From Elusimicrobiota bacterium (lineage in GTDB: Bacteria; Elusimicrobiota; Elusimicrobia; UBA1565), in contig JACRDO010000133.1 in the NCBI GenBank assembly GCA_016212885.1, positions 1-64,000 on the forward strand: DNA of 64,000 nucleotides, in the 5' to 3' direction. Each line of letters begins with the position of its first letter. Within the stretch, counting starts at the first letter, position 1. Of the stretch, positions 31,501 to 47,238 are shown one piece after another. The translations under genes and the position numbers were made by a program. The notes under the pieces were generated by a model. That model had not been told where the DNA came from and did not search any database. It worked only from the letters and a program-made list of their open reading frames with translations.

Positions 31501-34085
31501 TAGCGCTCGCGCTCAGCCGCGTCCACCGGGCGGCTCTGGCCGGCCATGGAATCGAGCCGGCCCTCTTGGAGCGAGGCCTGCGCTTCCAAGCCGCGGATGC
31601 GCTCGCGCGCCTGGCGGATGGCCTCGGCCAGGTCCCCGGGCTTGGGGCCCTTGTTCGAGTCGCTTTGCTGGGCGGCGGCGCCGACCACGGCGGCCACCAC
31701 GGAGCGGCCGGCCCCTCCGGCCCCGCCCGCCCCTCCGGCCTCGACGGCCTCGATGATCGGGTCCCCGCGCACGCCGGTCGTCAGGCCGCGCGTCAGGCGG
31801 TAGACGCTGTCGGTGAGGTTGAAGCCGAGGAGGTTCTGGAGCTTGTAGATGAGGATGTTGCCCCAGGTGATGGCGCCGCCGAAGGGGATGGGGCTCTCGC
31901 CCTGGGGCCGCTCCACCGCGGCGCCGATGGTCTGGAAGAGGCGGAACTCATGGCCGGTCCCGGCCTTGAAGGCCGGGGTGAGGGCCCGGTCCAGGGCTCC
32001 GGCGTAGCCCATGACGCCCTCGATCTCCGCGCCCACCATCATGAGCCCGGCCAGGGACTTGAGGTTCTGGGACCAGAAGGTCCGGCTCGCGAGGGTCCCG
32101 AACACGCCGTGCCACCAGAGCGCGCTCAAGGCCCGCGGCGGGGAAAGGGTCCCGTGGCGGCCGTCCATGAAGCGCTGCTTGAGGGCCGCGGGGAAAGTCA
32201 TGATGGAGGAGAGCACAAGGGAATTGAGCAGGGGTCCTATTGAAAGGTCGCCCACGAGGGCGTTCAAGGCGCCGCCGAGCACGGAGGAGGCGGCCCCACC
32301 CACCCAGGGCAAATGCGCCGCGGCTGCCGGCAGGGCCTGGAGCATTGCGAGCGCGGGCCCAAGGGCCGGCAGGGCGCTCAAGTGGATGGCGAGCAGGGGC
32401 AGGGGCAGGATGCCGGCCACCAGACCCATGGCGGCCGCGCTCAGGATGGCCATAGTGGCCCTGCGCCAGATGAACTGGAGCAGGGGCTGGATGAGCGGGG
32501 TCAGGAAGTATCTTAAGACCAGCCGGCCCGCCCGGGTCCCTCCAGCCTTTTCGAGGAGAGTGGGCTGGCGGAAGGCCGAGCGGCTCATGGCCGACTCAAG
32601 CCAGCGCTCGGAGGCGGCCTTCTCTTCCACGCTGCCGCCTTCCCTCGCGATCCGCTCGCGCTCCAGGGCGTCGCGCACCGCGAAGAAGTCCTCGGCGCCG
32701 TGGAAGAACTCGTAGGCGATATTGCGGCGGAAGTAGCCGAAGATGAAGGAATCGAAGAGGTGGTAGGGGAAGCGGATGAAGAAGCCGAGCACATGCTTCT
32801 GGATCTCGAAGCTCCTCTGCAGGACGCCCTTCATCCCGGGCGCGTAGCTCTTGTTGGCCAGCTTGCGCCAGGGCGCATCCTCGGCCTTCCTGCGCAGGCC
32901 GAGCTTCGCCATCAGCCGGCCGAAGGCGTCCGAGATCAGCCCGCCTTGGTACTTCTTGGAATCGAGGTGCGAGAACTCCTCGCGGTTGGCGCGCTGGAGG
33001 CGGTCGTAGACCGCGAGCCAGGCGGCGCGGTCCTTGATGCGGTAGCGCTCGCCCAGGTCCACGACCTTGGCGTGGGCGATTCCGAATTGCCTTGAGATCT
33101 GCTCGATGATGCGGGGCACGTCCGCGCCCGCGGGGAGAGCCTTCAGCGACGAATCGTGCCGGACCCCGCGCACCCGGCGGAAGCCGAAGAAGTCCTCTTC
33201 GATGTGCTTGGAGGAGGCCGGGGGCTCTGGCTTCTCTTCGGCCTTCGCGGCCGGGGCAGCGTCTGCCGGGGGCCGGACTTCGATGTGCGACACGAGGTAG
33301 ATCTTGCCGCTTGCATCGGTGGTGGCCTGGTAGCGGCCTGCGCGGACCGCCGCCGCGACCACGCGGCCGTCCAAGGGCTGGAAGGAGGCGGCATCGTAGC
33401 TGTAGACGTACGCCGGGCCGCCCTTGCTCAACTGCTCGGCCGCTTCATCAGCGGAGAGCCGGCGCACGCCTTGTGCAAATCCCTTGGGGGTGGTCTGGTC
33501 CGGGCGCAGGTCCACGGCGCTGGGGCGGGAAGCCTGGGCCGCCACTCCGTCCTTGAGCTCATCGAAGCTCTTCTCAGCCCACTCGCGCGATGAGCCGTCG
33601 CCCTGCAGGGTCTCGGCTGAGGGCTTGAGGTTCTCTGCTTGCGGGTTCTCCGCAGCAGGGGCCGGCTTCTGCTCGGCGTTCTCCGTGAGGACCTCGTGGG
33701 ACACGGCCTTGAGCATTCCCCAAGCTTTCTTCTCATCCTGAGCTTTCTCGATGACGGGCTGGAGTATCCGCGATGGAAGGGCCTGCTGGATCTTCACCGG
33801 GGCGTGGATGTCCGCTGAAACGCTGGGGGCTGAAACCGAGCGCCTGACGCCTGGCATGGACACCGTGGGCAGGGCCGCGCCGGTCTTCAGGGCGCTTGGC
33901 TGGAACTGAAGGCTTTGCGGCTGGATGCTGACCGGAACGACTGTGGCCGGAAGGCCTGCGCTCTGTCCCGCTTTGGCCGCCTGCGCCATGTCCTGGGCCG
34001 AGGCGTAGATCGCGAGGGTTCCGGGGGTGGTGAGGAGGAGGGAGAGCGCGACGGCAACGGCCAGAAGCTTCCGCGCTACTTTCAC
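19596..34085 (-). CDS. Giant exported protein (4829 aa) with TolC-like segments and a C-terminal membrane anchor
   Basis: The chosen start is a GTG at 34085, giving a signal peptide (VKVARKLLAVAVALSLLLTT). A TTG 60 bases upstream is in frame but adds a charged leader. Residues about 520-720 are hydrophobic with several possible membrane segments. From about 820 the protein is dominated by long Ala/Glu/Arg/Leu helices, predicted coiled coils. Around 2650-3000 the pattern resembles outer-membrane efflux (TolC/OEP) proteins: a beta-rich LTLSFGVQLQDL, then GWNLTSSGVGWIP, then a helical hairpin ending RLAAEEARATLNYLLG. The C-terminus has a Pro-rich stretch (PQSPQGPQSPGD), one helix (WIGWAATAMAAALAAWWIF) and RRRHQ, a tripartite anchor or sorting-signal layout. 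Two identical 28-bp repeats lie inside. No stop or frameshift interrupts 14.5 kb, so it is clearly maintained. Possibly an envelope-spanning or surface fibre protein; function unknown. Confidence 0.85.
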   Translation of the reverse strand: MKVARKLLAVAVALSLLLTTPGTLAIYASAQDMAQAAKAGQSAGLPATVVPVSIQPQSLQFQPSALKTGAALPTVSMPGVRRSVSAPSVSADIHAPVKIQQALPSRILQPVIEKAQDEKKAWGMLKAVSHEVLTENAEQKPAPAAENPQAENLKPSAETLQGDGSSREWAEKSFDELKDGVAAQASRPSAVDLRPDQTTPKGFAQGVRRLSADEAAEQLSKGGPAYVYSYDAASFQPLDGRVVAAAVRAGRYQATTDASGKIYLVSHIEVRPPADAAPAAKAEEKPEPPASSKHIEEDFFGFRRVRGVRHDSSLKALPAGADVPRIIEQISRQFGIAHAKVVDLGERYRIKDRAAWLAVYDRLQRANREEFSHLDSKKYQGGLISDAFGRLMAKLGLRRKAEDAPWRKLANKSYAPGMKGVLQRSFEIQKHVLGFFIRFPYHLFDSFIFGYFRRNIAYEFFHGAEDFFAVRDALERERIAREGGSVEEKAASERWLESAMSRSAFRQPTLLEKAGGTRAGRLVLRYFLTPLIQPLLQFIWRRATMAILSAAAMGLVAGILPLPLLAIHLSALPALGPALAMLQALPAAAAHLPWVGGAASSVLGGALNALVGDLSIGPLLNSLVLSSIMTFPAALKQRFMDGRHGTLSPPRALSALWWHGVFGTLASRTFWSQNLKSLAGLMMVGAEIEGVMGYAGALDRALTPAFKAGTGHEFRLFQTIGAAVERPQGESPIPFGGAITWGNILIYKLQNLLGFNLTDSVYRLTRGLTTGVRGDPIIEAVEAGGAGGAGGAGRSVVAAVVGAAAQQSDSNKGPKPGDLAEAIRQARERIRGLEAQASLQEGRLDSMAGQSRPVDAAERERYRELMQALQEGRDESYIRAKMAEIKDLAAGRPEEEGRLEALKKLEKFYDAALLPRTKNPGHADDQAVQTASLKALQGILENLGGERSEFRPKQGTVARVDAETEKRVGELVGRIEGLREQAKAELANREALSKLLSALNTTRNAALRERRNGKDMLEFHKNMARLATVMDLAFSLNEIAAAQKAITGMQQLLDKKLAKIDGVRQASDAAKAEAERMRRNSDAWRQEVDKSVKSDQVSMKDMLDLQEQTALAAERIAAFRTDVKSLLARIDAEDSGLSLNAAAEYSRRQALLPSIVEWMRAGKPGEPDYLSLKRFEASISEVETYLRKIDDGVRKLDQTPIEFAGIAVIAVPGVPDVGPLVNPTIERTLQILDERETYWRAQKADYDKLLTEVRNRLSPSYAGAETDDFGESHPISLVRWQAQERENLSRGREEARRLLGQVDQLAGEINQAVSGANLPMLSGLELKALQDAIEAYPDKLAAVNFPNSDTQEIFRAKMALLGVGRLLPQAGRAVLRWSKADATSSKLQDVIANTLPRAQGGLEGVVSLMGRILTDAQADRAYIKAGSHSPAQNQALLDRKRAMLAQEMRPKIEAARAMVREALIPFMNDQIRAMDPKGDMWARLFSAQRKLYDASQKAVERTLPWALASSGAPDGDKATGLSNIEGTRRKYQRYLSGYDDAQGRHSGVEELLNEMSRRKDPNFTGAEDIYGEAQPFSLPRKISRYSSEKSRRAAQYNAQAADINSILERLDRMTAGRYGLASLRLPTGMDPEGQGSVDILQSLIDNKTLCALGDRLSEIGEIYKAKGAAVSMGGGSSEGVPTGTQPSPTVDDNTQVALLAMETAKRLAPSTNQGGPNAPESSASYAVARFLYSNAVISASRKNLEERIPAAEQILGQAKIGLQHAIADLESDKAYVDSNGSGESAQSVTDRKLAVYRELNGLTGSVAAFFGQKAAWDREGSGTVDLVDTYYDSTGRIYGSSAQVSDAEREAVLKMKEALAKTYRDLETNRVKLAGWLAQLNDPHESALRRTAENIRDLQDKTRAVLEQNIQYREVEERAAREHEIVRWLIKGMDEAQASLEKELRDLNDPGGLSPALLSRINALRGARGAWYLPAEAEGDAAALVVPKRDFTRFIDQIFAGILKNEPSTRNLAGLRQDLLANPAGLSGLIPDAQVLSFGDADGFYIVYQTQFSVPHGLESSNAVTFGNVARLWGNNVSVSGYQFVSPPNEENAPWGDKGVEAQIESLQGSNWVNYLNVDLHRFIQDIPQNVTMASSARQSRLLVFDDFAMMLFGDRLYVGAAGFADIALGNAQEKPAFYGGSVKTSLKLSEVMRLNAEQQRIFANDPRSFLQTVNLDFTGLDPDLNQDFVIDAKGDRKTYTRTQLGPSFDIARLIGSPDAFTVDFYVARQEGADDFTQNSAGVSVIKGFTIKDDSGKPWMVISNRAGAERGEQYNTYTDRVSVTLPRQGIALSAEGRLLGDAKTYFLEASKAMGTHTNLSASYGSRYAGIPDRLTLSLNSAFTLGELWAAVAEGASDGLQGSGALKPFNEDMEGLFSSKGNDPAAAEEIKRVFMNDVGRRLITQDIGSLSREIAQLRRAGAVLDNTRIRGMAGFVSNPVGYDLSDRAAGGGFVAGTQTELTLTKTQKALIEARSESLYREGLRLQERLIGLSKQWQQAVLDVAQAQWELKMARYMVERAPTDAMRAEGRVWEAQAQAGLNAATVRYNLLAGRAEGDALPFKDLDASQLGEVLAEIRRTLSSEDRLAEVLSGLDREALKSELGEDRFNLIDWLPWVDRLTLSFGVQLQDLMAGQVLGFGGSVRLPIYDPSSKEKDGAYRLEAQASLAQIKTVYGEIRLRAQKEALQAKAAGRESDILAPQALPAGRELLDALAGHRNGLVGDSRLREAFSRWRDVTAGLLAAEGKRTVAAAWAELDGTLAERPSSASGGTVRLSSFQEAFDLAARNSSSLEEIGARQASAAAMARANSHRIEKFWLDVYVGWNLTSSGVGWIPAIGATGFGVMPAPTFELKPEELKELQVRRGEGQSRYFEAFKMKLEADLSVEIFRSAVMLQNSQRAVDILESEVVPQAKTQAQLDSAQRRLVSARLAAEEARATLNYLLGYEKGGADWRMSPEKALADLKIILADKNALAADKAVLSARVEVARAVETMADKNLKAEELRVEPVSLVVRSLGRLIHALSDEGIGNPDLAAAARIQTLEAERAEESFEADAAARKARAAAELSQARRRLAKLENRGDAESRLAALGLRTQSAVLEAALARMGVSEGASIQNAEAPLSYVELGERLAEGKQAAFAAAREPQVSLLDPQTVRYQSLAAARYYDVKTSLGGDPVGKSFLEGWVEVRLRSQDTPAEVLLALAKLRTDKADRAFRNDVSAARAQARILLAQFETDVRLLRWAKDERRAQEGRGKDFYRFVRQLEDRVEARAAEIEALIGMPQGTPTEALTRLVPSDPSGSESPERIAARLIAQSQDEALGQFARTIFENGLPRTASGGDTSSGYPSVGLPKLGAEDDISPQIKADVIAERMSFKGFTPVGAFGVFRGRGVGAAFLEAPDPRSIERSLESVLSDSLRRELLAQGRMQELTLKLHLLMKGVSDKALLLERQHELALAAQDELRAAALRQTRGLAGPDDVLAAEQRLVSAWTAFTQTASEAKNDFAALVAELEALGFDSRSVLQPTARPLDPAPEARKSPQARVFEHLSRRMLDADFAGRLGSFLRAQGLPADQANGIEELGRVYRRMSQDADIVRHGDVAPALKLDALVKADVEGRRARLQGALSDAWAAMGLEARKGFIDFLKGENRRDIAGSESARAHTEAVIEAMREAFAAGFEKPFAVQGAADKLDALRRERDAARQALLEDYLTDLRGPAEFVLRDLALDAYLKAVTAYDEAVVRLFDSKELRSDPVLARRLDAVYGLKDALARQKALAQRGRGLLAIDALLMLEDARLAALQWRRASHAEFDEVLASADRLSRLRESWLSGDLKGLSPLYAATKTDGGRRLWTIEGWHTQEDVDKLLAAGQITKDPEGRLWLKPAGSGDKLEVVSGVDLAESRRSRAQSGAESAGLRAKVYEALEKSDFALVGLDGGAAKGISYEEASALASKDRGVFYFAAEPGPSGLRAAVHPLKALWSDPAGTETIVYLGAQILSRDRFPTLEALKEHLSRLSKSDPAEAAQFFRLEAGPEGVRKMLEAAQEQRLRHVRAGWMGVKLQTYGFAVDKSGKVAALYMTKDDFDEAAKALRGAADLLPKTIRLLEAAREKAAAAADAAQRQRALSDGESLRYQLVQKEVRERISAQAGAGKPKGEIDRLVSADKDFKAAQKRMSESFERTAKLDEARLDALRKADEALRDLKEAGKVAAAAGLWAKLGGFYLAALKEAGASDAELAEQKSFLERCGEFSLYVTRDAALLIDEGHTLIGVSAEPALGARRLDDRFGRAQGALKVVRGEVFAAVLDRDQTLVSLYMDGDSVESAAKAWQLKAVSGRTTGGRLPTANGGGTSSGYPSVGSRLDPNLRLLHYVEPASGLPVMLNRRYLISRLEGAGRKLTEAENWGLMPWNWGNLLLEAPKGVLRTPIELLTGEDPRQQGYLGRVYLRKIEGGATEHHGFFRRIAGKLDVLDILPDPVQWYFDPSQFPKEADLDSPLLPGQNLYDKDLAAGEHDLHYGKQAISRGVSGSVEDLLNARKRVLSFFEGGVEETWLATRRGRAGLYLSSSVEEKPGLEQLEKALDDPDVAFSPGSEGRGEVRLSGEPGHIEVDKVERRLRIRPGARQYGSIEEGLAKLPALIERNRQASTKDRERFAADLTAAENELRDALSARRAVDARLGALSDEAHARAWRIGAQEALEARMRALAQDLARLREELAREQRHLRELEAEPARPPKPAAPQSPQGPQSPGDPLHPQNPVSPAQAHLPWAWIGWAATAMAAALAAWWIFRRRHQIPIPRNLRGRAS
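20931..20958. repeat. 28-bp in-frame repeat, copy 1
   Basis: Identical over 28 bp to 23937-23964. In the coding frame both give TSSGYPSVG preceded by a Gly-rich stretch. The copies lie 3006 bp (1002 codons) apart, so the frame is the same. The flanks diverge, but in both cases run into GGxTSSGYPSVG after a basic or proline-containing segment (GGRLPTANGG here). Confidence 0.85.
23937..23964. repeat. 28-bp in-frame repeat, copy 2
   Basis: Second copy of the repeat at 20931-20958, encoding GGDTSSGYPSVG after NGLPRTAS. It is short, identical in DNA and inserted between unrelated helical stretches, so a recently spread palindromic or linker element is more likely than domain homology. Confidence 0.85.
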
Positions 34086-34168
34086 ACTATTAGTGTAGTG
34101 GATATAGGCACGCCTCGGATGAGCCCATGGGCTGGAAAAACGCAATATAATGGCCCAAGATCCGTTGG

Positions 34169-34192: not shown

Positions 34193-35142
34193 TGTCAGAC
34201 TTTATTTATTTATTTTATAGGCTTTTTCGTCCGCTGCCCGGATGAGCTGGCTAATGGCCGAAGGGGTGCGGTTGAACATGCGCGCGAGCTCGGTGACCCC
34301 GACCTTGGCCTCGCGCCAGATGCGGTAAATGGCTTCCCGGCGTATGGCGGTCAATTTCCGCCATTGGCCCCGCCCGAGCAGCCTTTCCTCGTCGACGCGG
34401 TGGCGCTGGAGGACATCGGCCAGGATGGCCTTCGCGGCCGCGGCTGCGACCGGGGCGTCCGCGGCCGGCGGCAGATCTCCAACGGTCTTGCGGACAGATT
34501 CCGCGAACTCTAGGTCGCCGATGAAAAGGCTGGCGTGGGAGGGAAGCGAGATTCCCCCCTGCTTTGCGCGCTCTTTGATGAACTTGAGGTAGAGCACGGA
34601 CTGCTTGAGGCGGTTCTTGGCCAGGCGGACGAGCACGGCCTCGGAGTCCACGAGCGGCTCGCGCTCTTCCGCCTCTACAAAGGCCGCGCAGGAGGACCAG
34701 AGGTAGCGCCACGGCTTCTCGCGCAGGCCTTCGCGCACCGGCGTCAGGTGCACGTAGCCGGTCAGATCGAGCAGGCACTTCTCCTTGTCGACGAGCAGGG
34801 CCTTGTAGCGGCCCTGGAACACGTGCCCGATGGCGCCATGCTCGAGGTTGAAGTGCTTGGTGTAGGCGGTGTTGAAGCCCTGCATGACCTTCGAGAGGTT
34901 GGGCTGGGAGGTCTCCAGCACGAGGTCCACGGAGCTCTCCATGAGGCAGTAGGCGTAGACCTTCAAGCCAAAGCGTTCCTTATAGGCGCGCAAGAGCTGG
35001 AGGAAGGCGCGGCGATCCTGGTTGCTCAGGAAGATGCTCTGGCGGTTGTTGCCGCCCAGCCGGATGTAGTAGCAGGCGCCTGGGAACTGGATGCGGTTTG
35101 GACGGCCCATAAGGCGAGTGTATCAAACTTTAAAGTCTGACA
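34193..35142. mobile_element. RAYT (REP-associated tyrosine transposase) element with 12-bp inverted ends
   Basis: Perfect inverted ends TGTCAGACTTTA (34193-34204) and TAAAGTCTGACA (35131-35142) enclose a single transposase gene, about 950 bp in all. The left end overlaps the transposase stop codon and the right end lies just upstream of its ATG. No target duplication is obvious. A strong GC-rich palindrome starts 15 bases outside the right end, as REP-like sequences often do near these genes. Confidence 0.82.
34202..35110 (-). CDS. Y1/HUH-type (RAYT) transposase lacking the histidine pair, with a C-terminal HTH
   Basis: 302 aa. Residues 1-150 match the Y1_Tnp fold: GACYYIRLGGNNRQSIF near the start, AYCLMESSVDLVLE near 55, FQGRYKALLVD near 105, and GYVHLTPVREG near 122 with the catalytic tyrosine. 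The family normally has NHVH or NHYH in the second motif; here it is SSVD, so both metal-binding histidines are gone although the tyrosine and surrounding residues are intact. The C-terminal third has a helix-turn-helix (VTELARMFNRTPSAISQLI), as in the longer members of the family. With an intact frame, this looks like either a very recently inactivated transposase or a protein kept for DNA binding. Confidence 0.85.
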   Translation of the reverse strand: MGRPNRIQFPGACYYIRLGGNNRQSIFLSNQDRRAFLQLLRAYKERFGLKVYAYCLMESSVDLVLETSQPNLSKVMQGFNTAYTKHFNLEHGAIGHVFQGRYKALLVDKEKCLLDLTGYVHLTPVREGLREKPWRYLWSSCAAFVEAEEREPLVDSEAVLVRLAKNRLKQSVLYLKFIKERAKQGGISLPSHASLFIGDLEFAESVRKTVGDLPPAADAPVAAAAAKAILADVLQRHRVDEERLLGRGQWRKLTAIRREAIYRIWREAKVGVTELARMFNRTPSAISQLIRAADEKAYKINK

Positions 35143-35868: not shown

Positions 35869-38800
35869 CTACCGCCCTTCGAGGCCGCGGAAGAGCGGGT
35901 TGCTCAGCTTCGGGGCGTCGCGCAGGACGCTGGCCGCGCGGAGCTGCTCCTGCTCCACCACGTCCTGCCTCATGGTGAGGTACTTCTCTACGGTTTTGTG
36001 GTAGGCGTCCGTGAGCCCCGGGCTCCTCCGGCCGGCCTCGAGCTCCTGGACGTAGGTGTGCAGGACCGCCCAGTCCGCGAGGAGCTTGCCCTGCCTGAGC
36101 GTGATAACCTGCGCCTCGGGGCTCTCGGCCAGCTGGCGCATGATGGGCTCGTCCGCCATCATCCTCTGGAACACCGGGTCCTTCTGCGCGGTCTGCACGT
36201 CCATGACCAGCTTGAAGTTGCGCGTCACGCCCGGCAGTACGCGGCCGAGGTCGATGCGGCCCTGGGACTGGATGTTGTGGACCCCGGACATCTCCTGCGG
36301 GTCTAAGATCAGCATCTCGAATTTCTTGTAGCCGCCGAAGCCGCCCGGCTTGCCGCGCTCGCCCTTGAAGTTCAGGTCCAGTCCCCGGCCGCCCACGCGC
36401 GTGTCGAGGATCAGCACCTTCACCTTGCCCGTGGTCAGGCCGTCCAGGTTCATCTGCCGGCCCACCTGGGCCTGGGGCCGGTTGAGGCGCATGAGCTCCG
36501 CGTCCGAGAACACCATGGCGATGTTCTCGGGCTCAAGCAGGCCGGTCTTGAGCAGGTACTGGCGCACCGCCTTGACCATCTTCGTGTCCGAGACGCTCAA
36601 GACCACCAGGGACTCCCCGTCCGCGGCCCGCACCGTCTCGCCCACGGTCGTGAACTTGCCCGAGGGCCCGGAGTGCAGCTCCAGAGTCGTGTTGGGCGCT
36701 CCGGCCGAGCCCTTGCCCACGATGTCCACCTTGTTGCCGGACATGTAGGAGTAGAACTCCTTGCCCGTGGTCCCCGAGAACCCCACGAACCGGAAGTTGT
36801 GGTTGTCGCGGATCAGGTCGTTCATCGTCACGATCGTCTTGTGCTCGTAGGGGAGGGTCAGGTCCGTGCCGTACTCCAGCTCCCAGTAGCGCCGCGTGGG
36901 CGTGTCCATGGACTCGAACCACTGGCCGTTGTGGATGATGTTGATGCGGCCCGTGATGTTGTCCACGCGGATGTTGGCCGGGTTGTCTAAGTAGCCGCGC
37001 GCCAGGTTGAAGAGCTCGGCGCGCACCCAGCCCGAGCTCTGGCCCGTGGGGCCGCGCGGCCAGATGGCCGAGGGCGCGATCTCCCAGAACATCCGCCACT
37101 TCACGTCCGGCGGCAGGAAGGGGTCGTTTAAGAACTGCTTGGCCAGGTCCCCGGCGTAAACGCGGGCGAGGCCCTTGGTCGTAGGCGTGATCGGCTGCAG
37201 CACCCGCGCCTCCGAGAGGCCGGGCACCTTCGAGAGCGCCCAACTCAGGCCGGTCCACCTCAGCCCGTAGCGCAGGGCCAGCTCGGAGGAGCCCACGCCG
37301 TCGATGCGCCTCTGCCAGATCTGCGCGGCTTTGTCCGCGGTGATCTCCAGGCGCTTGATCTCGGACTGGAAGGCCGCGGGCATGGGCTCCACGCTCAGAC
37401 GCACCATGTCCGCCTCCGGGCCCTTGAAGGCGGAGAGGTTCGTCTTCCAGGCCGCCGCGGTCTGCCGGGAGTCGGCCAGCAGGGTCTCCAGTTGGGCCAC
37501 GACGGCCTGTTTCCTCGGCAGGTCGAAGCGCGAGATGGAGTGGTTCAAGTCCGATATCTTCCCGTTCCACAGGTCCACCTGGACCTGGGCCGAGCCGAGC
37601 TTCTCGCGCATCGCGACCTTCTGGGTCGGCTCAGCCGCGTCGAAGTCCGCGCGGGCGGTCTTGAGCTGGGTCTCGGCCTTGGCGAGACCCTCGTGCGCGC
37701 TCAGTCTCGCGGCCAGCAGGGCCTGGTGCTCCGCGTTCACCGGAGCGTCGAGCATCGTGCGGAGCTTGGCCGCCTGCTGGTTCCAGCGCGTCTGGAGCTG
37801 TTTGGCCGCCTCGACGTAAGGTTCGGCCTTCGGGTCGCTCTGGGCCAGCTTCTGCACGCGCTCCACCAGGTCCTTGCCGGCCGTCTCCAGCCTGAGGGCC
37901 GCCTGCTTCGGGCTCCCGGAGACGACCAGGGCGTCGTCCTGGGTGCGGACAGTCGAGCGCACCATCGAGTACATGTCCTGGCGCATCTTGGAGAAGATCT
38001 CGTAGATCGGGTTCTCGCGGGCCACGGCCTTGTCCACGAGCACCTCGCGCTTGGCCAGCAGCTCGCGCGCCTTCAGCTCCCAGCCCGGGGTCCCTTCTTT
38101 GACCGCCTGCCGGAGGCCTTCGGCGTTCGCCTTGAGCTCGACGCGCGCCTTGGCCGCGCCTTCGGAGAGCTTGAAGGCCTGGGCCTCGTACTCGCGGGCC
38201 AGCTCCGCGTTCCCCTTCCCGCGCGCCTGGGCCGCCATGCGGCGCAGGTTCTTGGCCAGGGCGTCGCCGGAGGGCTGGGCCTGGAGCAGGACCGACTTCT
38301 GGTCTAGGAGCAGGCCCTCCACCTGGCGGATCATGGCCTGCCGGTCCGCGAGCGGGATCGACTTCCGCTCCGTGAGCGCCTTCATCAGGTCCTTGCCAGC
38401 GGCTTCGATCTCCAGCTTCACGGACTGGGCCTGCGGCATCTCGGAAACCAGATTGGTCTGCTTGCCCACGATGTTCTGGATCCTCTGCTCCGCCTTCATC
38501 ACGTCGTACTGGACCGCCGAGTTGTGCAGCTCGCGCAGCTTCATGTCCAACTTCTCGACCACGGAAGCGGCCTCGCCCGGCGCGGCCTTGAGCTCGCTGA
38601 CGAGCTTGCTCAGCGCCTCGGCGTCGGCCTGCGAGAGCTTCTGAGCGCCCTGGCGGTTGAGCCAGCCCCGAGCCCGCTCGAGCGCAACCCCCTTGTTGTC
38701 CGACGGGGTGAAAGCCTTGGACTCCTGCAGGGCCAGGCTGCGGGAGGCCTGCAGGAGGTCCTTCGCGTTCTGGAGCATGGCGGCCCGCGCCGGGCCCTCC

Positions 38801-41800
38801 GGCATGGACTCAGCTGTCGCCTGCATGCGCCGCACCTGCGACTCGACGGAGGTCCGCGCCTCCTGCGGGGCCTTGTTGAACAGGTTCTCCATGCGCTTGC
38901 CCAGGCTCTTGAGCATGCGGTAGCCGGACCCCTCCTTGGAGATGGAGGCCGTGGTCTCGCCGATGGTGAGCGCCGGCTGAAGGGCCGCGCCGTCCATCTC
39001 GTCGCCCAGGATCCAGTAGTCGTCGGTGGTGTTGTGGAACTTGAGCTTGCCCTCGGCGATCTTCGTCTTGAACCCTTCCCAGGTGTCCAGGGTCATCTTG
39101 GTCGCGAGCTTCTTCAGGCTGCGGAACTCCATGCGGGCCTGGGACTCCAGGTTCGACTGGACCGTCAGGAACATGGTCTTCTTGCCGCGCAGGGTGGCGT
39201 CGGCGTCCGCGAAGGGCAGGAGCCCCTCGAAAGCGATCAGGGTCTTGCCCGCGCCGGTCTTCATCTGCAGGAAGGTGCGGACGATCTCGGAGGACTGCGC
39301 GCCGCTGCGCGTGACCGAGTACAGGAAGTACATCAGGCCCTCGAACTGGACAGGCCGCCAGCCCTGCAGGTTCGTCCCTTTCGAGTCTTGGAGCATCCAG
39401 GGCGCGGCCTGGATCTCTTTATAGGCGCCATCGAGCACGGCGAGGTCCGAGGCCGCGAGGTTCGGCTTCTGTGCGTCGATGGTCTTCTTGAGCTCGAGGA
39501 GCAGGCCGCCGAAGTCCCCGGGCTTGGCGGCCTTGGGGCTCTCGCCTGGCTTGAGGATGGCCTCGCCGGCCGAGCGGTTCTGCGCGGCCCAGTCCAAGGT
39601 CCGCCGGAGCATCCCGTCCAAGGTGCGCTGGACCGTCTGGTTCGGGGAGGAGGCGCCGGTGTACTCCGTCTTGAGCGCCTCCAGGGAGGTCTTCACCCGG
39701 GAGACGAAGGTCTCCTGGCGGTTGAAGTACTGGAAGCGCTGCTGGATGGCCTCGAGATAGTCCAGGGTCTTGCCCAGGACCGTGGTCTCGGCAGCTGAGA
39801 GCTGGGCCTTCTTGGCCTCGATCTTGCTGCGGAACTCTGTGAAGAGATCCACGTAGCTCTTCGAGGCGTCGGCGTGCGGGGTGTCCTGGTTGTTCTTCCA
39901 CTGCACGGTACGCTGCATCATCTCCTCGACGGTCTGCGTGAAGGTCTTCGAGGGCGTCGGGTTCTTCCCCAGGGCCTCCACCAAGGCCTTGGCCTTGCCG
40001 GCCACGAGCTGCTCAGACTCCAGGTACGGCTTGAGGATCCGCAGGCTCGCTTCGTACTGGCCCTTGGGGACCGAGGCGGCGCCGTCCTGCTGGGCGCGGT
40101 AGAGGATGCGGGCGACCTCCTCCTGGTGGCGCAGTTGGACCGTGCCGAAGCCGTCGATCTTGCTGCCGGGCTTCGCGTCGAGGATGCTCCCGGCGAGCTT
40201 CGTGTTCTTGACGATGGACTTCTCGAAGAGCCCCTGGGCCTGGTCGCGGACCTCGTCGTTGACGTAGAGCTTGCCGCCCACCATCTGGTTGTCGTTCATC
40301 TGGCTGACTTTGTAGTACTCGAGCGGATTGACGGAGAGCGGGTCCACCTTCTCGCCGCGGCCGGCGCCCTTGATGGCCCCGGGCAGGACCTCCTGGATCG
40401 CCTGGTACTTCATGTTCTTATCGACTTTGAAGTTGCCGTGCTCGCCGGACTCGCCGCGCCAGCGCAGGTTGAATATCCTCTGGGAGATGGGGGTCTGCGG
40501 GTCGTGCTTGAGAGGCAGCTCGGCGGTGTCCGCGGCCGCGTTGGCGATCTTGTCGAGCTCTCCGGCCTTCTTGTACTCCTCGTAGCCCTGCTTGCTGCGC
40601 TGCTGGGCCTGCGCGTGGGCCTCGTACTTGGCCGGGTAGACCGGCAGGGCCAGCCACAGCGGCAGCTCCATGGCCGCCATCCCCGCCTGCTGGGCCCGCA
40701 GGATGCGCCGCTCGATGTTGCTGCCGTCGATGGTGTTGAAGCGGTAGGAGGCCCACTGGGCGGCCGCTCCCGAGCCGTAGCTCAGCGCGTAGTACTTGGC
40801 GATGTTGTCGCCCATGCTCAGGAATGTCGCCGCGGCCGACTGCCAGCCGCCGGCCTTGGCCAGGCCCTCGATGCCGTGCGAGCCGAGCCACCTCGCGGCG
40901 CCGCTCGTGGCGCCGAAGCGCGAGAGGCCCGACTCGGCCAGGGCGCTCGCGTTGCCGACCAAGCCGCGCGTGGCGAGGGAGTCGGCCACCGGGGCCATGA
41001 ACGTTCCCTCGTAGACGCTGGAGGGGATCCCGGCGTAGAGCAGCATCGGGTGCCAGGAATCCGTGGCCCACTTGGCGCCCTGCTGGTAGCCCAGGACGAA
41101 CGCCTCGCCCGCGGTGGCGAAGGCCGAGTGCCCCTTCCCGATCTTCTGCTCGTACATGTGGGTGCCTGCGGCCATGGCGCCGGAGATGGGCCCGGAGAGG
41201 AGCAGGGCGAAGGAGCCCATCCTGGCGGAGGCGTTGACGAAGCGCACCATGCCCCCTTCCATCACCCGCAGTGTCCGGGTGGCGCTGTAGAGCTTGTCAG
41301 CTGCCGGGCTGAGGCTGGAGAGGCGCAGGGCCGTGTGCTCGGCGATCGCGCCTGCGGCGCGCAGGCCGAAGGCCAGGGGGCGGCCGATGTAGGCGATCCC
41401 TTGGACCGCCTTGGCCGCGGTGAAAGCCATCTTGGCGACGCCGGTGAGCGCCGCCGAGGCCACGGGCGCGGCGATGGCCAGCGCGGCGGACCATGCGAGG
41501 GTGTTGATGACGATCCCGGTCCAGACATGGACCTTGGCCACGCTCTGGAGGGTCTCCTGGGTCTTGCGCAGGGAGGCCTGGATCCTCTGCGGGTCGGTGA
41601 TCTTGTTGTCGCCGCCCAGGGTGATGCTGCCGTAGGCGTCCACGGCGTCTGGGTCCATGGCGATGATGGCGGTCCGGGCCGCCTTGAAGTCCCCCCGGGA
41701 GATCATGCGGGCGATCGAGAGGAGCTGGGGCCGGAACTTGCCCAGGGTCTCGCGGTTCTGGAGGTAGCCGCCGGCCGCGTCGCCCTTCCAGAGCTTCGAG

Positions 41801-43443
41801 AGCTTGTTGACGAGCTTCGCGCCGCCGCGGGTCAGCAAGGGGGTCACGCCGCGGTCCTCGTCCTTGGTGATCTTGGCGAGCTGGGGCATCGCCGAATAGA
41901 TCATGTAGTCGAGGCCGACGTCGCCGAGCTGCTTCTGCGTTGACTGCAGGGCGGAGGAGATGAGCCCCATGCCGGTCACGTGGTCCGCGTCTAAGGCCTC
42001 GCCCTCGAGCTTGCGGAAGATCGCCATCAGCTGCTGCAGGCGCTTGCCGAGGATGTCTGCGGCCTTCTTGTAGTCCGCCTTCTCGGCCTCCGAGAGCGGC
42101 GAGTCCTTCAGGGCCTTGCGCAGCGCCTCGGCCTCCGGGGCCTTCTTAAGCCGCCTGAGCACCAGGGCCCCGTTCTCCACGCTCACCTCGAAGCCGAGGC
42201 TCTCGAGCTGGTTGACCGTATGGAAGCGCTGGGTCTCGAGGAAGGTGAGGACCACGTACTTGAAGATGATCTGCTCGTCCGCCTGCATGCCGGAGATCTC
42301 CTCAGGCAGGATGACGTCCCGGCCCTTGAAGGACTCCACGCGGCGGCGATAGCTGAGGAGGTGCTTCTTCGCCTTGTCCAGGTAGGCGTTGCGCTTTTCC
42401 AGCCGGCAGTCCACGAGGTCCGTGTAGTCGCTGACCACGCGGCCGCAGACGCCGTCGTACTCGTTGATCTTCTTCTTGCGGCCCATGGCCGCGAGGTCCG
42501 CCTCCAGTGTCTTGTCCTTGATGAACTGGTCCTCGCGGTACTGCTTGCCCAAAAGCTGCGCCAGGCGCGCCATGCGGTCGATGCGCTCGCCCTTCTCGAT
42601 TTGGTCTACCTGCTCCTGCCGCTGGCAGTAGCTGTAGTAGAGCATCTCGTAGTTGTAGCGGCCCGTCTCCGGGATTTTCGGCGCGCATGGGGGCCGGCCC
42701 TTGTTCATCTTCTGCTGCTGGCGCACCAGGTCGCGGTTGTAGGTGACGACGCCGCCCGTCTCTGCGCACTCCCAATCCTCCCAATCTCCGGAGGCCTCCT
42801 TCTCGGCCTTGAACGTCGGGAACTTCGCCATCGACATCTTAAGCGGCTCGTAGCCGGCGGGCCAGCGCCGGCTGCGGCAGGACATGCTCTTCATCATCCG
42901 GACCGCCACGCCCCGGCGGTCCACGAAGACGAAGTCCTGGTCCGTGTCCACCTGCATGAAGTCCTGCTTGGGCTGCTCGGCCTGCATCACCCCGGTCAGC
43001 AGGGCGTTGAGCTTGGCGCCGAGCATGAACGCATCCTCCGCGTCCGCGCCCGCGACGCTGCCGAAGCGGTCCGTGACGTCCTTGTAGGCCTTCTCCACGG
43101 CCTCGCGCTTCTTGTCCGTGTAGGCGCCGAGCTTGCGGATGTCCTCGAAGGTCTCCTGGTACTCGCCGATCTGCTGCTCGTCGGCCATGAAGTAGCGGTA
43201 GAGGGTCTCGCCTATGCGGGTGAGCTTGCCGGTCTTGGCGTCGAAGACGTAGCTGAGCAGGGGGTCCTTCTCCGACTTGATGACGCCCTTCTGCTTGAGG
43301 AAGGCGAGGGCTTGGGCGGGGTCCGGCGCCGCGGCAACGGGGGCCTTGCTCTCGCCGGCCCAAGCGGAGACGGGCGCCCCGGCGGTCCAGACCAAGGACG
43401 CGGCGAGCAAGCAGGCGAGGAGCTTCTTGAGTGCCAGGGTCAT
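35869..43443 (-). CDS. Signal-bearing 2524-aa protein with a split SecA-like ATPase core
   Basis: The N-terminus (MTLALKKLLACLLAASLVWT, then AGAPVSAWAGE) is a signal peptide. Residues about 640-800 contain several hydrophobic segments. Walker A QMKTGAGKTLIA lies at about 1393-1404 and DEMD (Walker B) at 1481-1484; both resemble SecA (MQTGEGKT, DEVD) more than ordinary helicases. About 700 residues of mostly coiled coil then intervene. The second RecA half has FSGTTGKEFYSY near 2222 (SecA MTGTA..TE..EF), ILDTRVGGRGLDL near 2345 (SecA motif V, T..AGRGTDI) and QSQGRIDLGR near 2392 (motif VI). SecA itself is about 850-900 aa, cytosolic and has no signal. ATP would be available only if the membrane segments return the core to the cytoplasm. 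Function unknown; a translocation motor is one possibility. Confidence 0.8.
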   Translation of the reverse strand: MTLALKKLLACLLAASLVWTAGAPVSAWAGESKAPVAAAPDPAQALAFLKQKGVIKSEKDPLLSYVFDAKTGKLTRIGETLYRYFMADEQQIGEYQETFEDIRKLGAYTDKKREAVEKAYKDVTDRFGSVAGADAEDAFMLGAKLNALLTGVMQAEQPKQDFMQVDTDQDFVFVDRRGVAVRMMKSMSCRSRRWPAGYEPLKMSMAKFPTFKAEKEASGDWEDWECAETGGVVTYNRDLVRQQQKMNKGRPPCAPKIPETGRYNYEMLYYSYCQRQEQVDQIEKGERIDRMARLAQLLGKQYREDQFIKDKTLEADLAAMGRKKKINEYDGVCGRVVSDYTDLVDCRLEKRNAYLDKAKKHLLSYRRRVESFKGRDVILPEEISGMQADEQIIFKYVVLTFLETQRFHTVNQLESLGFEVSVENGALVLRRLKKAPEAEALRKALKDSPLSEAEKADYKKAADILGKRLQQLMAIFRKLEGEALDADHVTGMGLISSALQSTQKQLGDVGLDYMIYSAMPQLAKITKDEDRGVTPLLTRGGAKLVNKLSKLWKGDAAGGYLQNRETLGKFRPQLLSIARMISRGDFKAARTAIIAMDPDAVDAYGSITLGGDNKITDPQRIQASLRKTQETLQSVAKVHVWTGIVINTLAWSAALAIAAPVASAALTGVAKMAFTAAKAVQGIAYIGRPLAFGLRAAGAIAEHTALRLSSLSPAADKLYSATRTLRVMEGGMVRFVNASARMGSFALLLSGPISGAMAAGTHMYEQKIGKGHSAFATAGEAFVLGYQQGAKWATDSWHPMLLYAGIPSSVYEGTFMAPVADSLATRGLVGNASALAESGLSRFGATSGAARWLGSHGIEGLAKAGGWQSAAATFLSMGDNIAKYYALSYGSGAAAQWASYRFNTIDGSNIERRILRAQQAGMAAMELPLWLALPVYPAKYEAHAQAQQRSKQGYEEYKKAGELDKIANAAADTAELPLKHDPQTPISQRIFNLRWRGESGEHGNFKVDKNMKYQAIQEVLPGAIKGAGRGEKVDPLSVNPLEYYKVSQMNDNQMVGGKLYVNDEVRDQAQGLFEKSIVKNTKLAGSILDAKPGSKIDGFGTVQLRHQEEVARILYRAQQDGAASVPKGQYEASLRILKPYLESEQLVAGKAKALVEALGKNPTPSKTFTQTVEEMMQRTVQWKNNQDTPHADASKSYVDLFTEFRSKIEAKKAQLSAAETTVLGKTLDYLEAIQQRFQYFNRQETFVSRVKTSLEALKTEYTGASSPNQTVQRTLDGMLRRTLDWAAQNRSAGEAILKPGESPKAAKPGDFGGLLLELKKTIDAQKPNLAASDLAVLDGAYKEIQAAPWMLQDSKGTNLQGWRPVQFEGLMYFLYSVTRSGAQSSEIVRTFLQMKTGAGKTLIAFEGLLPFADADATLRGKKTMFLTVQSNLESQARMEFRSLKKLATKMTLDTWEGFKTKIAEGKLKFHNTTDDYWILGDEMDGAALQPALTIGETTASISKEGSGYRMLKSLGKRMENLFNKAPQEARTSVESQVRRMQATAESMPEGPARAAMLQNAKDLLQASRSLALQESKAFTPSDNKGVALERARGWLNRQGAQKLSQADAEALSKLVSELKAAPGEAASVVEKLDMKLRELHNSAVQYDVMKAEQRIQNIVGKQTNLVSEMPQAQSVKLEIEAAGKDLMKALTERKSIPLADRQAMIRQVEGLLLDQKSVLLQAQPSGDALAKNLRRMAAQARGKGNAELAREYEAQAFKLSEGAAKARVELKANAEGLRQAVKEGTPGWELKARELLAKREVLVDKAVARENPIYEIFSKMRQDMYSMVRSTVRTQDDALVVSGSPKQAALRLETAGKDLVERVQKLAQSDPKAEPYVEAAKQLQTRWNQQAAKLRTMLDAPVNAEHQALLAARLSAHEGLAKAETQLKTARADFDAAEPTQKVAMREKLGSAQVQVDLWNGKISDLNHSISRFDLPRKQAVVAQLETLLADSRQTAAAWKTNLSAFKGPEADMVRLSVEPMPAAFQSEIKRLEITADKAAQIWQRRIDGVGSSELALRYGLRWTGLSWALSKVPGLSEARVLQPITPTTKGLARVYAGDLAKQFLNDPFLPPDVKWRMFWEIAPSAIWPRGPTGQSSGWVRAELFNLARGYLDNPANIRVDNITGRINIIHNGQWFESMDTPTRRYWELEYGTDLTLPYEHKTIVTMNDLIRDNHNFRFVGFSGTTGKEFYSYMSGNKVDIVGKGSAGAPNTTLELHSGPSGKFTTVGETVRAADGESLVVLSVSDTKMVKAVRQYLLKTGLLEPENIAMVFSDAELMRLNRPQAQVGRQMNLDGLTTGKVKVLILDTRVGGRGLDLNFKGERGKPGGFGGYKKFEMLILDPQEMSGVHNIQSQGRIDLGRVLPGVTRNFKLVMDVQTAQKDPVFQRMMADEPIMRQLAESPEAQVITLRQGKLLADWAVLHTYVQELEAGRRSPGLTDAYHKTVEKYLTMRQDVVEQEQLRAASVLRDAPKLSNPLFRGLEGR

Positions 43444-43629: not shown

Positions 43630-46600
43630 CTATTTCTTGAGCTCCGCCCACTCCAGCGCCTGGCTCTCCGGCGCACCCCACCAGACGACGAGCCCCTGCA
43701 CGTTCCTCTCCCGCGCGGAAGGCGCGTCGAAGAGGGCCCGGCAGCTGGCCTTCTGGTACTTATGAGAGCCGTCCGCGAGCAGCTTCGGAGGCACGTCGAG
43801 GCGCACCTGGCTCCAGTCGAGGTCCTTGTTGAGATGGACACCCTTCGCCTGGATGGATTTGCCGAACTCGGCCTTCGCGCTCTTCAGGCGCAGGTAGACC
43901 GGGTCCTTCGGCTGGCGCACCTCGGTCTTGCTCCAGACCGCGAACTGGACGTAGTAATGGAACTTCCCGCCGTCCTCTACCTGGTAGACCACCGCGTCGC
44001 AGCGGACCTTCCCTGCGCTGTCCTTGTAGTAATGGCTGTTCACGACCTTCCCTGTGAGGGTCTTGCCCTGGTGCTCGATGGGCCTGTCCGCGGGCTTGAA
44101 GGACTCGTCGAATTCGGTCCAGGCCATCGTGTTGGAGGAGTCCACCTCCACCCCGGCCGGCGCGTCCGGCCCCTGGTGTCCGCCGGTCGGGTCCTCGACG
44201 ACCTCCGGGTAGATCGTGTCGACGTAGGCTTTGATCTCGTCTCCGACGCGCAGCGAGATCGACACCGCGACGACGCCCGCTTCCCCGCCCAGGCCCTTGG
44301 CCTCGGGCCCGTCGATCGAGTTGAAGGTCTTGGCGCCGCGCTTCTTCAGCCGCTCCTCCACCCGGGCGAGGATGGTGTTGACCTGCTCGCCGCTGTAGCC
44401 GACCAGCGGCAGAAGGTCCTCGGCCACGAGCCGGTTGGGGACCCTGAACTGGGAGCCCTTGCGGTGCTGCGCCACCTGAGCGAAGGAGGCCTTGGCCCCG
44501 GAGCCCTCGAGTCCCTTCTCCACGTCGACGTAGAGGATCCACTTGTCGCTTTCCGTGCGGAGGATGTTCCCTCCGATGATCTTTTGCGACAAGGCCGCCG
44601 ACGCCTCCAGGTAGGGCAGGAGGGCCTGGTTGTTGGAGGCGGCGTTCCATACGATCATGGTCCTGAACGGGTTGTACTCGGCGCCCGGAGCTGGCTTCTC
44701 GTCGTAGAAACGGACCCTGTTGTCGAAGAGATCCTTCCTAAGGGCTTTGTTCAGCGGCCCCGCGATGGGGCCGTCCTGCGTGTAGGCCGGCAGGTTCGGC
44801 GGCCAGCCGCCCACCTGCCCGCCCCCGGTCCCCGTCCCTGTGCCGGTCCCGGTACCCGTGCCTCCGCCTGTCCCCGTCTGCGTCCCTGTGCCGGTCCCCG
44901 TCTGCGTCCCTGTCCCTGTGGTGGGCGGCGGCTCCGGCGGCGCCGGCTCCGCGCCTTCCACCGGCTGCCACATATTGATCTTGACGTTCCACTTCAGGTC
45001 GTACCATTTCCCGTTGACCCGGCCGAGGCTGACCTGGTCCTTGATGTTCGAGACGAGGCCTCCGGTTTTGCGGTTGACGTAAGCCAGCATCTCGGGCTGG
45101 AGCCCGCGCAGGTTCAGATTGGGGTCGTCCAGGCTGCCCTCGATCATCTCCTGCGGCCAGAAGAGCAGGGCGCCCCTGTCCGAGGACTGGCCGGAGACGT
45201 AGTACTTCTGGCCGCCGACATCGACCAGGTTGCCGATGTCCTTGACCTGCTGGGCCCTCTGCCGGAAGAGCCCGTTGACCGTGATGTCCGCGGGCTTGTC
45301 GGTGGGATACTCGATCTTCCCCCCGTCTCCGCCCGCGACGCTGATGACGGTGTCGTTGCCTCTCGCTATCAACTCGAGCTTGTAGCGCTTGCCCTTGGGG
45401 TTGCGGTCGTCCAGGATGAAGGGGTCCTTGCCGACGTAGTCCAGCGCGAATCGCCGGCCGAAGATGTCCGACTCGTCGGTGATGTCGTAGATGCCGACCT
45501 CGGTCTTCAAGGCGCCGGGTTGATTGTCCGAAAGCTTGGAGTTGCGCAGGACGATGGCGATCTTGCGGCCGTCCACGTAGATGACGTTGGGGTCCCCCCA
45601 TTTGCCGAAGAGCTCCGCCACGCCGAAAGGCCGGCCGAGGTTGGCCCCGATCTGGGAGATCCGGCCGCCCGTGCCCCCTCCCGTCGTGTCGACCACGGCC
45701 TGCTCGCGTTCGCCCGCCTCCGACTTCAGCCGCGCCAGCGCGTCCTGGAGCTTCTTGATCTCGGAGGAGAGGAGCTTGACCGCTTCGGCCGAGCTGTCGG
45801 CCAGGAAAGCCTCCAGCCACGCGGCGTGGAGCTCGCCTCCGCCCTGGAGCGGACCCTTCTGCCGGCCCTTGATCGCCTCGGCCTTCGCGCAGCCGTCAAC
45901 CTCCGAGCCGCCCGCCCAGCGGTCCAGGCAACCTACGAGCTTCGCCTCGAACGTCTTCATGGTCTCGCTCTGCGCCCGCACGGCGAAGATGGCGGCGAGG
46001 TCCTCGTTGCTCTCGATCCAATCCGGCGTCTTCTCGCCCGAGCCGAGGCCGTAGTAGAGGAGCGCGGCCGACTCCCAGGCGCCTTTGACCCACGCCTGGA
46101 TGGCGCCCGCTTGCGCAGTCTCGAGCTCCTTCTTCTTTTCGCGGAGCTCCGGGGAAACGAAGGACTTCCCTGCGTGCTCGGCCCAGAGGAAATCATAGAT
46201 TCTCAAGGCCACATCCGACTCATGCCCTTTCAGAAGGTCCCCGAGGCCTTTGGCGAATTTGACGAACTGATCCCCCTTGAGCACCTTCTCCTGGCCCGGA
46301 ACAGGACGTCCCTCGATATCTTCAGGCTTCTTCTGCACGATCGGCGCGGAAGCCTGCGCTTCGCCGCCGAGCGCCTTCTGAACCTCCTCCGCGGAGAGCT
46401 TGTTCCAGATTTGCGGCGCGACCGGGAGCGGCTTGGCGCCCTTGGGCGGATGGAAGCTCCAATCCTTGTTCGCGCCCTTCTGCAGGAAGCTTTGCGATTT
46501 CGCGCTGGGGTCGTTTAAGTCCGGCTTCGTGTAGAGGGCGACCGGGCCGCCCTTCGAGAGAGCGCCTTCCTGGTAATAGTAAGCCTGCCCGTTGATGACG

Positions 46601-47121
46601 CCATTGCGCCACGCCGAGTCCTTCTTGACGCCTGAGGGCTGCCGGAGGTCGTTGCCGCGGGCAGCCGGCGCCTTCACCCTCCGGATGTCGAAGCTCAGGT
46701 CCGTGCCGAGCTCGCGCGCGAACTCCATCGGCGCCGGGTCCGCCCCTTCCGAGATCCAGATGAAGACGGGCTTGCCCGAACGGACATCGATCCGGCTCTT
46801 GGCCGGCCGCTTGCACTCGGAGTCCAGGCAGAGCGGCAGGGTCCCGCTCTTCGGGACAGGGCTGGGTGAATAGAAATCCCTTTGCCGGCTGGGGCCGGCG
46901 AGCGTCACGGCTTTCCTGCCTGTGACGTAATATTGGTACCAGCGCTCCGTCTGCTCCGCGGCCGAAGCGGCCGCAGGGCCTGAGAGCGCGGCCAAGGACG
47001 GCAGGGCCAGCGTGAATAATATTGATACTGCACGACGTCCCGAACATCCGAAATACGTAAGTTCGGGACGTCCAAAACCTACAGACTCTCGATGTTTGGG
47101 ACGAGAGGTCTCGGCGCTCAT
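43630..47121 (-). CDS. Large exported protein of unknown function (1163 aa)
   Basis: The ATG at 47121 has a strong ribosome-binding site (GGAGGGAG, 3-10 bases upstream); an in-frame ATG at 47145 lacks one. A charged 31-residue leader precedes the hydrophobic core of the signal peptide (VSILFTLALPSLAALSGPAAASA). The leader is long because a double palindrome (47034-47103) lies inside it. The mature protein mixes helical stretches (about 290-470) with a beta-rich region (about 480-720; GRKIAIVLRNSKL, VISVAGGDGGKIEYP). A Thr/Gly repeat linker (about 735-765) follows, then a C-terminal domain with more beta strands (RCDAVVYQVEDGGKFHYYVQFA). Two cysteine pairs suggest a periplasmic location. No known domain is recognised. 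Its neighbours on both sides are the other envelope giants. Confidence 0.78.
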   Translation of the reverse strand: MSAETSRPKHRESVGFGRPELTYFGCSGRRAVSILFTLALPSLAALSGPAAASAAEQTERWYQYYVTGRKAVTLAGPSRQRDFYSPSPVPKSGTLPLCLDSECKRPAKSRIDVRSGKPVFIWISEGADPAPMEFARELGTDLSFDIRRVKAPAARGNDLRQPSGVKKDSAWRNGVINGQAYYYQEGALSKGGPVALYTKPDLNDPSAKSQSFLQKGANKDWSFHPPKGAKPLPVAPQIWNKLSAEEVQKALGGEAQASAPIVQKKPEDIEGRPVPGQEKVLKGDQFVKFAKGLGDLLKGHESDVALRIYDFLWAEHAGKSFVSPELREKKKELETAQAGAIQAWVKGAWESAALLYYGLGSGEKTPDWIESNEDLAAIFAVRAQSETMKTFEAKLVGCLDRWAGGSEVDGCAKAEAIKGRQKGPLQGGGELHAAWLEAFLADSSAEAVKLLSSEIKKLQDALARLKSEAGEREQAVVDTTGGGTGGRISQIGANLGRPFGVAELFGKWGDPNVIYVDGRKIAIVLRNSKLSDNQPGALKTEVGIYDITDESDIFGRRFALDYVGKDPFILDDRNPKGKRYKLELIARGNDTVISVAGGDGGKIEYPTDKPADITVNGLFRQRAQQVKDIGNLVDVGGQKYYVSGQSSDRGALLFWPQEMIEGSLDDPNLNLRGLQPEMLAYVNRKTGGLVSNIKDQVSLGRVNGKWYDLKWNVKINMWQPVEGAEPAPPEPPPTTGTGTQTGTGTGTQTGTGGGTGTGTGTGTGTGGGQVGGWPPNLPAYTQDGPIAGPLNKALRKDLFDNRVRFYDEKPAPGAEYNPFRTMIVWNAASNNQALLPYLEASAALSQKIIGGNILRTESDKWILYVDVEKGLEGSGAKASFAQVAQHRKGSQFRVPNRLVAEDLLPLVGYSGEQVNTILARVEERLKKRGAKTFNSIDGPEAKGLGGEAGVVAVSISLRVGDEIKAYVDTIYPEVVEDPTGGHQGPDAPAGVEVDSSNTMAWTEFDESFKPADRPIEHQGKTLTGKVVNSHYYKDSAGKVRCDAVVYQVEDGGKFHYYVQFAVWSKTEVRQPKDPVYLRLKSAKAEFGKSIQAKGVHLNKDLDWSQVRLDVPPKLLADGSHKYQKASCRALFDAPSARERNVQGLVVWWGAPESQALEWAELKK
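44826..44925. repeat. Thr-Gly minisatellite in the 1163-aa protein
   Basis: About 100 bp of 6- and 12-bp units on the coding strand, reading GGxACx, encode (TG)n with interspersed Q and G (TGTGTQTGTGTG). This makes a flexible linker between the beta-rich middle and the C-terminal domain. Such repeats change length by slippage. Confidence 0.8.
47034..47103. repeat. Double palindrome inside the 5' end of the 1163-aa gene
   Basis: GACGTCCCGAAC (47034-47045) pairs perfectly with GTTCGGGACGTC (47061-47072). CGTCCAAAAC (47069-47078) pairs with GTTTGGGACG (47094-47103) with one mismatch. Both loops are 15 bases. Compared with 43453-43522, the stems differ by compensating changes (CCC/GGG versus ATC/GAT) while GACGT, GAAC and the layout are kept. 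Confidence 0.8.
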
Positions 47122-47238
47122 AAGCTCCCTCCGCGGGAAGAACAAATCCTGATTATGGTAGTTTACCAGAGAAGGGCCTAGGAGGCAAGTCCTTCTTGGC
47201 CTATGATGAACATAGGACCAAGGGCCTAGGCATCAAAG
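47122..47238. other. Gap upstream of the 1163-aa gene
   Basis: It holds two direct copies of AGGGCCTAGG (47173-47182 and 47221-47230), related to the 11-bp motif upstream of the giant and SecA-like genes. On the minus strand a weak -10 candidate, CATAAT, lies at about 47151-47156. No -35 match and no gene are visible. Confidence 0.4.

Follow-up and report, generated by a model that had tools for sequence, protein, structure and literature searches.

SecA-like domains have been noted, in one sentence each, in giant secreted toxins of actinobacteria (PMC8195603) and in effectors of Amoebophilus (PMC3482391), and these are the nearest precedents that we found for the protein family described here. 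Both resemble it in having a SecA-like ATPase domain within a giant or effector-like exported protein. Compared by description alone, the Elusimicrobiota family differs in being signal-peptide-borne, syntenic, and order-wide, and, unlike the actinobacterial toxins, the protein studied here has no toxin domain (ART, metallopeptidase, and others) among its Pfam matches. An earlier note on this DNA stated that it knew of no description of a membrane-tethered or extracytoplasmic SecA-like ATPase; the two precedents qualify that statement, although no report of the Elusimicrobiota motor family was found in the literature searched. In the consulted portions of three further papers, predation or attachment is the role discussed for giant proteins of a sister phylum (PMC10066038, PMC12057145), and an enrichment in huge proteins is described for Elusimicrobiota (PMC11573180). 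These giants of Omnitrophota and Elusimicrobiota come from the same or sister phyla and likewise are very long ORFs with poor annotation and a link to the membrane or surface, discussed as surface weapons or adhesins. By contrast, those portions mention no SecA-like or SF2 motor, and the motor family, at 2400-6100 aa, is conserved rather than strain-specific.

The motor gene lies at 35869..43443 of the window, the 64,000-nucleotide stretch of an Elusimicrobiota contig that was analysed; this gene and all genes of the surrounding cluster are on the minus (-) strand. It is an intact ORF of 2524 aa with an ATG start and is present in single copy in the source genome. The orthologue in Elusimicrobia bacterium UBA9639 (L021), which is the closest relative with a name, is 74% identical over residues 1-2524 and collinear end to end. 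A chimeric or frameshifted ORF was ruled out as an artefact, since the orthologues are collinear and have the same domain order. The chain begins with a signal peptide (43357..43443; residues 1-29, MTLALKKLLACLLAASLVWTAGAPVSAWA, followed by G) that ends in an AWA cleavage site, as read from the sequence. Next comes an N-terminal domain (42244..43356; residues 30-400) with six Cys residues (189/226, 253/273, and 333/346) that probably form disulfides. A weak hydrophobic segment at residues 640-665 (41449..41526), which is absent or below transmembrane grade in about half of the homologues, and a second one at residues 742-760 (41164..41220) precede the motor. Thus, of the signal peptide and hydrophobic segments claimed for this region, the former was borne out, whereas the latter are weak.

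RecA-like half 1 (38914..39426; residues 1340-1510) contains Walker A (MKTGAGKT; 39241..39264; residues 1394-1401) and motif II (DEMD; 38992..39003; residues 1481-1484) and gives the only Pfam match of the protein above cut-off, ResIII (2.9e-5). A variable helical insert of about 570 aa (37192..38913; residues about 1511-2084) separates it from the end of half 1 and RecA-like half 2 (36184..37191; residues 2085-2420), where motifs III (SGT; 36769..36777; residues 2223-2225), V (RVGGRGLDL; 36373..36399; residues 2349-2357), and VI (QSQGRIDLGR; 36241..36270; residues 2392-2401) are found. The two RecA-type halves proposed earlier are supported by motifs in the expected order and by the ResIII match to the first half. 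The proposed separation of about 700 residues corresponds to the 742 aa between motifs II and III, although the insert itself is shorter. Alignments of two sequences gave AlphaFold2 models with pLDDT values of 39 (residues 1330-2524) and 41 (residues 2087-2524), and in these low-confidence models (pLDDT ~40) the insert is nearly all helix and the C-terminal tail (35872..36183; residues 2421-2524) is helical. A PDB sequence search with the full-length protein returned no match, and one with the motor halves returned generic helicases alone (E ~0.04-0.3). NCBIfam and PADLOC matched nothing in the protein, and PHROGs gave a weak DNA helicase match (0.005).

A motor homologue was matched in 48 of 57 related genomes, and a profile search across the phylum was positive in 27 of 248 Elusimicrobiota genomes. 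The motor family is conserved across an Elusimicrobiota order and present in most genomes of that order, and the search for homologues in related genomes that had been suggested was answered by a conserved family. No relatives of the motor were found in IMG/VR, phages, or plasmids. In an alignment of 22 near-full-length homologues (2400-3400 aa; 21-74% identical), G1399, K1400, T1401, D1481, E1482, and D1484 of half 1 and S2223, T2225, R2353, G2354, L2355, D2356, Q2392, G2395, R2396, and R2401 of motifs III, V, and VI are invariant, and G2224 of motif III is at least 90% conserved. All of the SecA-type motifs reported earlier are present at the residues listed above, and the invariance of these 16 catalytic-motif positions is far beyond chance. 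Pfam matched ResIII at E<=1 in 20 of 21 homologues. In a comparison of the window gene with L021, half 1 is 96% identical with a dN/dS of 0.047, compared with 0.277 for half 2 and 0.535 for the poorly conserved insert. The invariant or near-invariant ATPase motifs and the low dN/dS of half 1 imply that selection keeps the ATPase site. With Walker A, DExD/H, and motifs III, V, and VI in order and the catalytic residues conserved, the motor has the features of an SF2 (two-RecA) ATPase. The GKT spelling is lost in one remote member, L125, and the DExD spelling in L171. In another genome, the motor homologue L041 (G044:C1:2574668-2582955) is split into several broken frames with an in-frame stop, which may reflect sequencing error or decay.

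The motor shares with SecA (PF07517/PF01043/PF07516) two RecA-like halves, Walker A, DExD, TGT/SGT, an AGRGxD-type motif V, and a QxxGR motif VI, and both have a large insertion between motifs II and III. At this place SecA has its preprotein cross-linking domain (PPXD). Motifs II and III are 182 aa apart in E. coli SecA and only 26-55 aa apart in RecG, Mfd, PriA, RecQ, DeaD, and UvrB. These motifs are separated by 742 aa in the window protein, by 614-1391 aa in most other homologues, and by 185-302 aa in the shorter-insert members L120, L121, L122, L042, and L043, so that the whole family spans 185-1391 aa; both the window protein and short members (185, 208, 219, and 261 aa) have the large insertion typical of SecA. 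In contrast to SecA, which is cytosolic and lacks a signal peptide, the window protein has a signal peptide for export. Its insert is several times larger than that of SecA, no Pfam match to PPXD (PF01043) was found in the insert at E<=1, and no match to the scaffold/wing model SecA_SW (PF07516; HSD/HWD) was found in the protein at the same threshold. Only about 120 residues follow motif VI. SecA_DEAD (PF07517) was never above its gathering score (0.14 for the window motor and at best 0.03 among 21 homologues).

With hhalign, the core family scored 53-54% with SecA, 47% with DEAD-box, and 41% with UvrB, whereas the widened family scored 97% with DEAD-box (on RecA2), 70% with UvrB, and 52% with SecA. 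The SecA alignment ran from the post-insert stretch, paired with the segment of SecA after PPXD (VDEFTGRLMP...TLATITFQN...GMTGT), through motif VI (234 columns, 52% probability). Against single E. coli helicases, hhalign could not rank SecA relative to RecG or DEAD-box proteins. The family shares with ResIII/DEAD-box SF2 helicases a Walker A half that passes the ResIII cut-off and a RecA2 half that matches the DEAD-box profile, but differs from them in its long separation of motifs II and III, its export, and its near lack of Cys. A true SecA is separately encoded in 37 of 38 genomes searched (at G000:C126 in the source genome), and the motor gene is absent from the PF07517 matches of the source genome. 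We conclude that the sequence tests establish generic SF2 similarity only and give no significant kinship to SecA, and that kinship of the motor to SecA is architectural, from insert position and layout. Because of the DEAD-box (97%) and UvrB (70%) scores and the absence of the PPXD and SecA_SW models, we describe the layout of the motor as SecA-like but do not classify the motor as a SecA. The earlier description as SecA-like therefore stands for motif spelling and insert position, but not for Pfam SecA domains, and the DEAD-box profile scores as good or better.

Several features bear on the location of the motor. All homologues whose N-terminus is complete have a basic n-region and a hydrophobic stretch, followed in nearly all by a small-x-Ala site (read by eye). 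The motor plus insert contains 6 Cys in 30,987 residues, the motor halves 2 in 16,825, and the conserved core 0 in 9,091, compared with 109 in 16,042 (0.68%) in helicase-family ORFs of related Elusimicrobiota genomes. The corresponding Fisher p values (1.6e-31 for the halves and 7e-22 for the core) treat residues as independent, and since the homologues are related, what should be taken from them is the size of the effect, about 57-fold. In the N-domain, the window protein shares a Cys pair 20 apart with L022/L023, L037/L038, and L042/L046 and a pair 13 apart with L022/L023 and L025. These pairs keep the same spacing and are gained or lost together among homologues, a pattern that is probably that of disulfides.

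On a crude hydrophobicity scale, the best segment ahead of the motor lies near residue 644 in many homologues, and its estimated insertion energy is 1.3-2.6 kcal/mol in about 12 of 23; residues 644-662 of the window protein are borderline, at an estimated 2.1 kcal/mol. Pre-motor segments are not clearly more hydrophobic than those of soluble helicases in L120, L121, L042/L046, L037/L038, L040, L032/L030, and L028. The depletion of Cys, the signal peptides, and the lack of a conserved return segment imply that the motor of the family is most likely extracytoplasmic. Of the two placements considered earlier, the extracytoplasmic one is thus favored by the Cys depletion, the paired N-domain Cys, and the homologues without a return segment, and membrane tethering is doubtful, with the 640-660 segment being transmembrane-like in only about half of the homologues.

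Two giant relatives each extend over a pair of loci: G117 (6071 aa) over L120:14770-20000 with L168:1-13482 (G117:C13), and G219 (5008 aa) over L121:11395-20000 with L169:3-7418 (G219:C27). Their motors lie within about 600 aa of the signal peptide (residues 635-1176 and 596-1115, respectively), and the best segment between signal peptide and motor is estimated, on the same crude scale, at 4.5 kcal/mol in G117 and 3.5 kcal/mol in G219. Both giants contain few Cys (7 of 6071 and 3 of 5008 residues). Behind its motor, G117 contains an ATP-grasp domain of the PPDK/PEP-synthase type (PPDK_N, 4.5e-68), a PEP-mobile domain, and a weak beta-propeller match. G219 contains two Clp-type AAA modules (AAA_2, 3.6e-55), an M14 carboxypeptidase, and a weak M50 match; the combination of M14 with Clp-type AAA was found in G219 only. 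The recurrence of ATP-using modules on signal-peptide-bearing chains of the family argues that these proteins encounter ATP where they are delivered. G117 also has four internal repeats resembling prepilin starts (RGFALLGS / RGMALLG) before hydrophobic hairpins, which are possibly cut by a prepilin peptidase.

The motor gene is part of a cluster whose order recurs whole or in part in relatives of its own and other families. In transcriptional order, the cluster contains genes for a pseudopilin-like protein (61500..62666; 388 aa with an N-terminal hydrophobic helix), a TadE-like pseudopilin (60973..61500; Pfam TadE 0.0014, below cut-off), and, adjoining these, an FtsH-like protein (59240..60931) with transmembrane segment, AAA (4.9e-37), and Peptidase_M41 (3e-31). 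A 345-aa membrane protein (58104..59141) and five further proteins with transmembrane segments (49971..58102; genes at 49971, 51642, 53423, 54898, and 56537) follow. Next are a core 906-aa single-pass membrane protein (47290..50010), found in 50 of 57 relatives, and, directly upstream of the motor, an exported 1171-aa protein without a Pfam match (43630..47145). Downstream of the motor are genes for a 302-aa Y1-transposase-like HTH protein (34202..35110; Pfam Y1_Tnp 2.3e-6) and a giant exported protein of 4849 aa (19596..34145) with a signal peptide, a C-terminal hydrophobic anchor, and a basic tail, in which Pfam found no match. The Y1-HTH gene follows the motor in many relatives, and its product is probably domesticated rather than mobile. 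The 4849-aa giant has two Cys, and its C-terminal hydrophobic segment and basic tail resemble a sorting signal. In G021 and G026 (L172, L173), genes of the 906-aa and 1171-aa types are present and no motor gene was detected beside them, which implies that the motor can be lost. The TadE-like and FtsH-like genes link the cluster to the Tad pilus and to the FtsH protease, but the cluster differs from a Tad system in that genes for TadA/B/C and a secretin were not recognised in the segment read. No secretion or injection machine was identified in the cluster, and no domain pointing to prey or host was found. Beyond the cluster, a type I restriction-modification set occupies 9461-19300 (HsdR, DUF4276, an AAA_21 ATPase, HsdS, AAA_14/DUF4143, and HTH-HsdM).

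We favor, with a probability of about 0.55, the reading that the family consists of exported SF2-type ATPases of SecA-like layout, active as judged from sequence, that are retained in the envelope or on the surface within the cluster-encoded machine and move or unfold polypeptide. The giant protein would be exported by Sec, and its C-terminal half would be an active ATPase whose first RecA half is interrupted by the long helical insert where SecA has its preprotein-binding domain. It may be retained in the envelope or on the surface within a machine of TadE-like pseudopilins, the FtsH-like protease, the set of membrane proteins, and the second giant exported protein. A motor that moves or unfolds polypeptide in the manner of SecA or Clp is suggested by the SecA-like layout and by the Clp-type modules in a relative. 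The least certain step is the site of action, which may lie inside a contacted cell or directly at its surface, where ATP would be available. ATP is scarce in the periplasm and is normally found only inside cells, so that a contacted cell would be the most likely site. Such action would also be the simplest way to meet ATP, given that predation or attachment is discussed for the giants of a sister phylum and that Elusimicrobiota are rich in huge proteins, but nothing in the window directly shows it. A search for an ATP/ADP translocase (PF03219), as a sign of energy parasitism, gave weak partial matches only.

We know of no ATP supply outside the cytoplasm, and this counts against an exported motor. 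The problem would be solved if the protein were a membrane protein with a periplasmic N-domain whose motor is returned to the cytoplasm through residues 640-760 and powers an envelope machine with ordinary ATP. The many membrane proteins encoded in the cluster and the segment near residue 644 are consistent with such a return, but the soluble-protein values of this segment in L028, L030, L032, L037, L038, L040, L042, L046, and the giants L120 and L121, together with a motor almost as free of Cys as an exported protein, make it unlikely. We keep it as the main rival because the hydrophobicity scale is crude and the window protein is borderline. Alternatively, the lack of expected ATP in the periplasm, the exported location, and the lost motif spellings in L125 and L171 could indicate that the motor fold serves as a nucleotide- or polymer-binding scaffold and not as an ATP motor. 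This is improbable in view of the Walker A Lys, DExD, and both motif VI Arg, which are invariant in the 22-member alignment down to 21% identity, and of the strong constraint on half 1. Least probable is a nucleic-acid helicase that acts on extracellular DNA, in biofilm or uptake, instead of on polypeptide. ResIII and DEAD helicase models are indeed the best generic matches, but the insert between motifs II and III and the AGRGxD spelling of motif V are closer to SecA than to DNA helicases, no nucleic-acid-binding domain was found, and no cluster gene except that for the Y1-HTH protein was recognised as one for DNA uptake.

Returning to an exported polypeptide motor, we propose more tentatively, at somewhat less than even odds, that the family forms part of a lineage-wide envelope machine with an ATP-hydrolysing SecA-like motor outside the cytoplasm of the producer, and that in relatives a single giant exported chain joins this motor to modules of the Clp-type unfoldase or PEP-synthase kind. 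ATP-driven motors are assumed to be cytoplasmic, since ATP is located there. If the proposal is true, either ATP would have to be supplied outside the cytoplasm or the motor would have to be delivered into another cell. An intact-looking exported SF2/SecA-type motor would thus break the cytoplasm-only assumption or mark a protein destined to work within another cell, and either answer would provide a first function for part of the giant-protein repertoire of Elusimicrobiota and their relatives.
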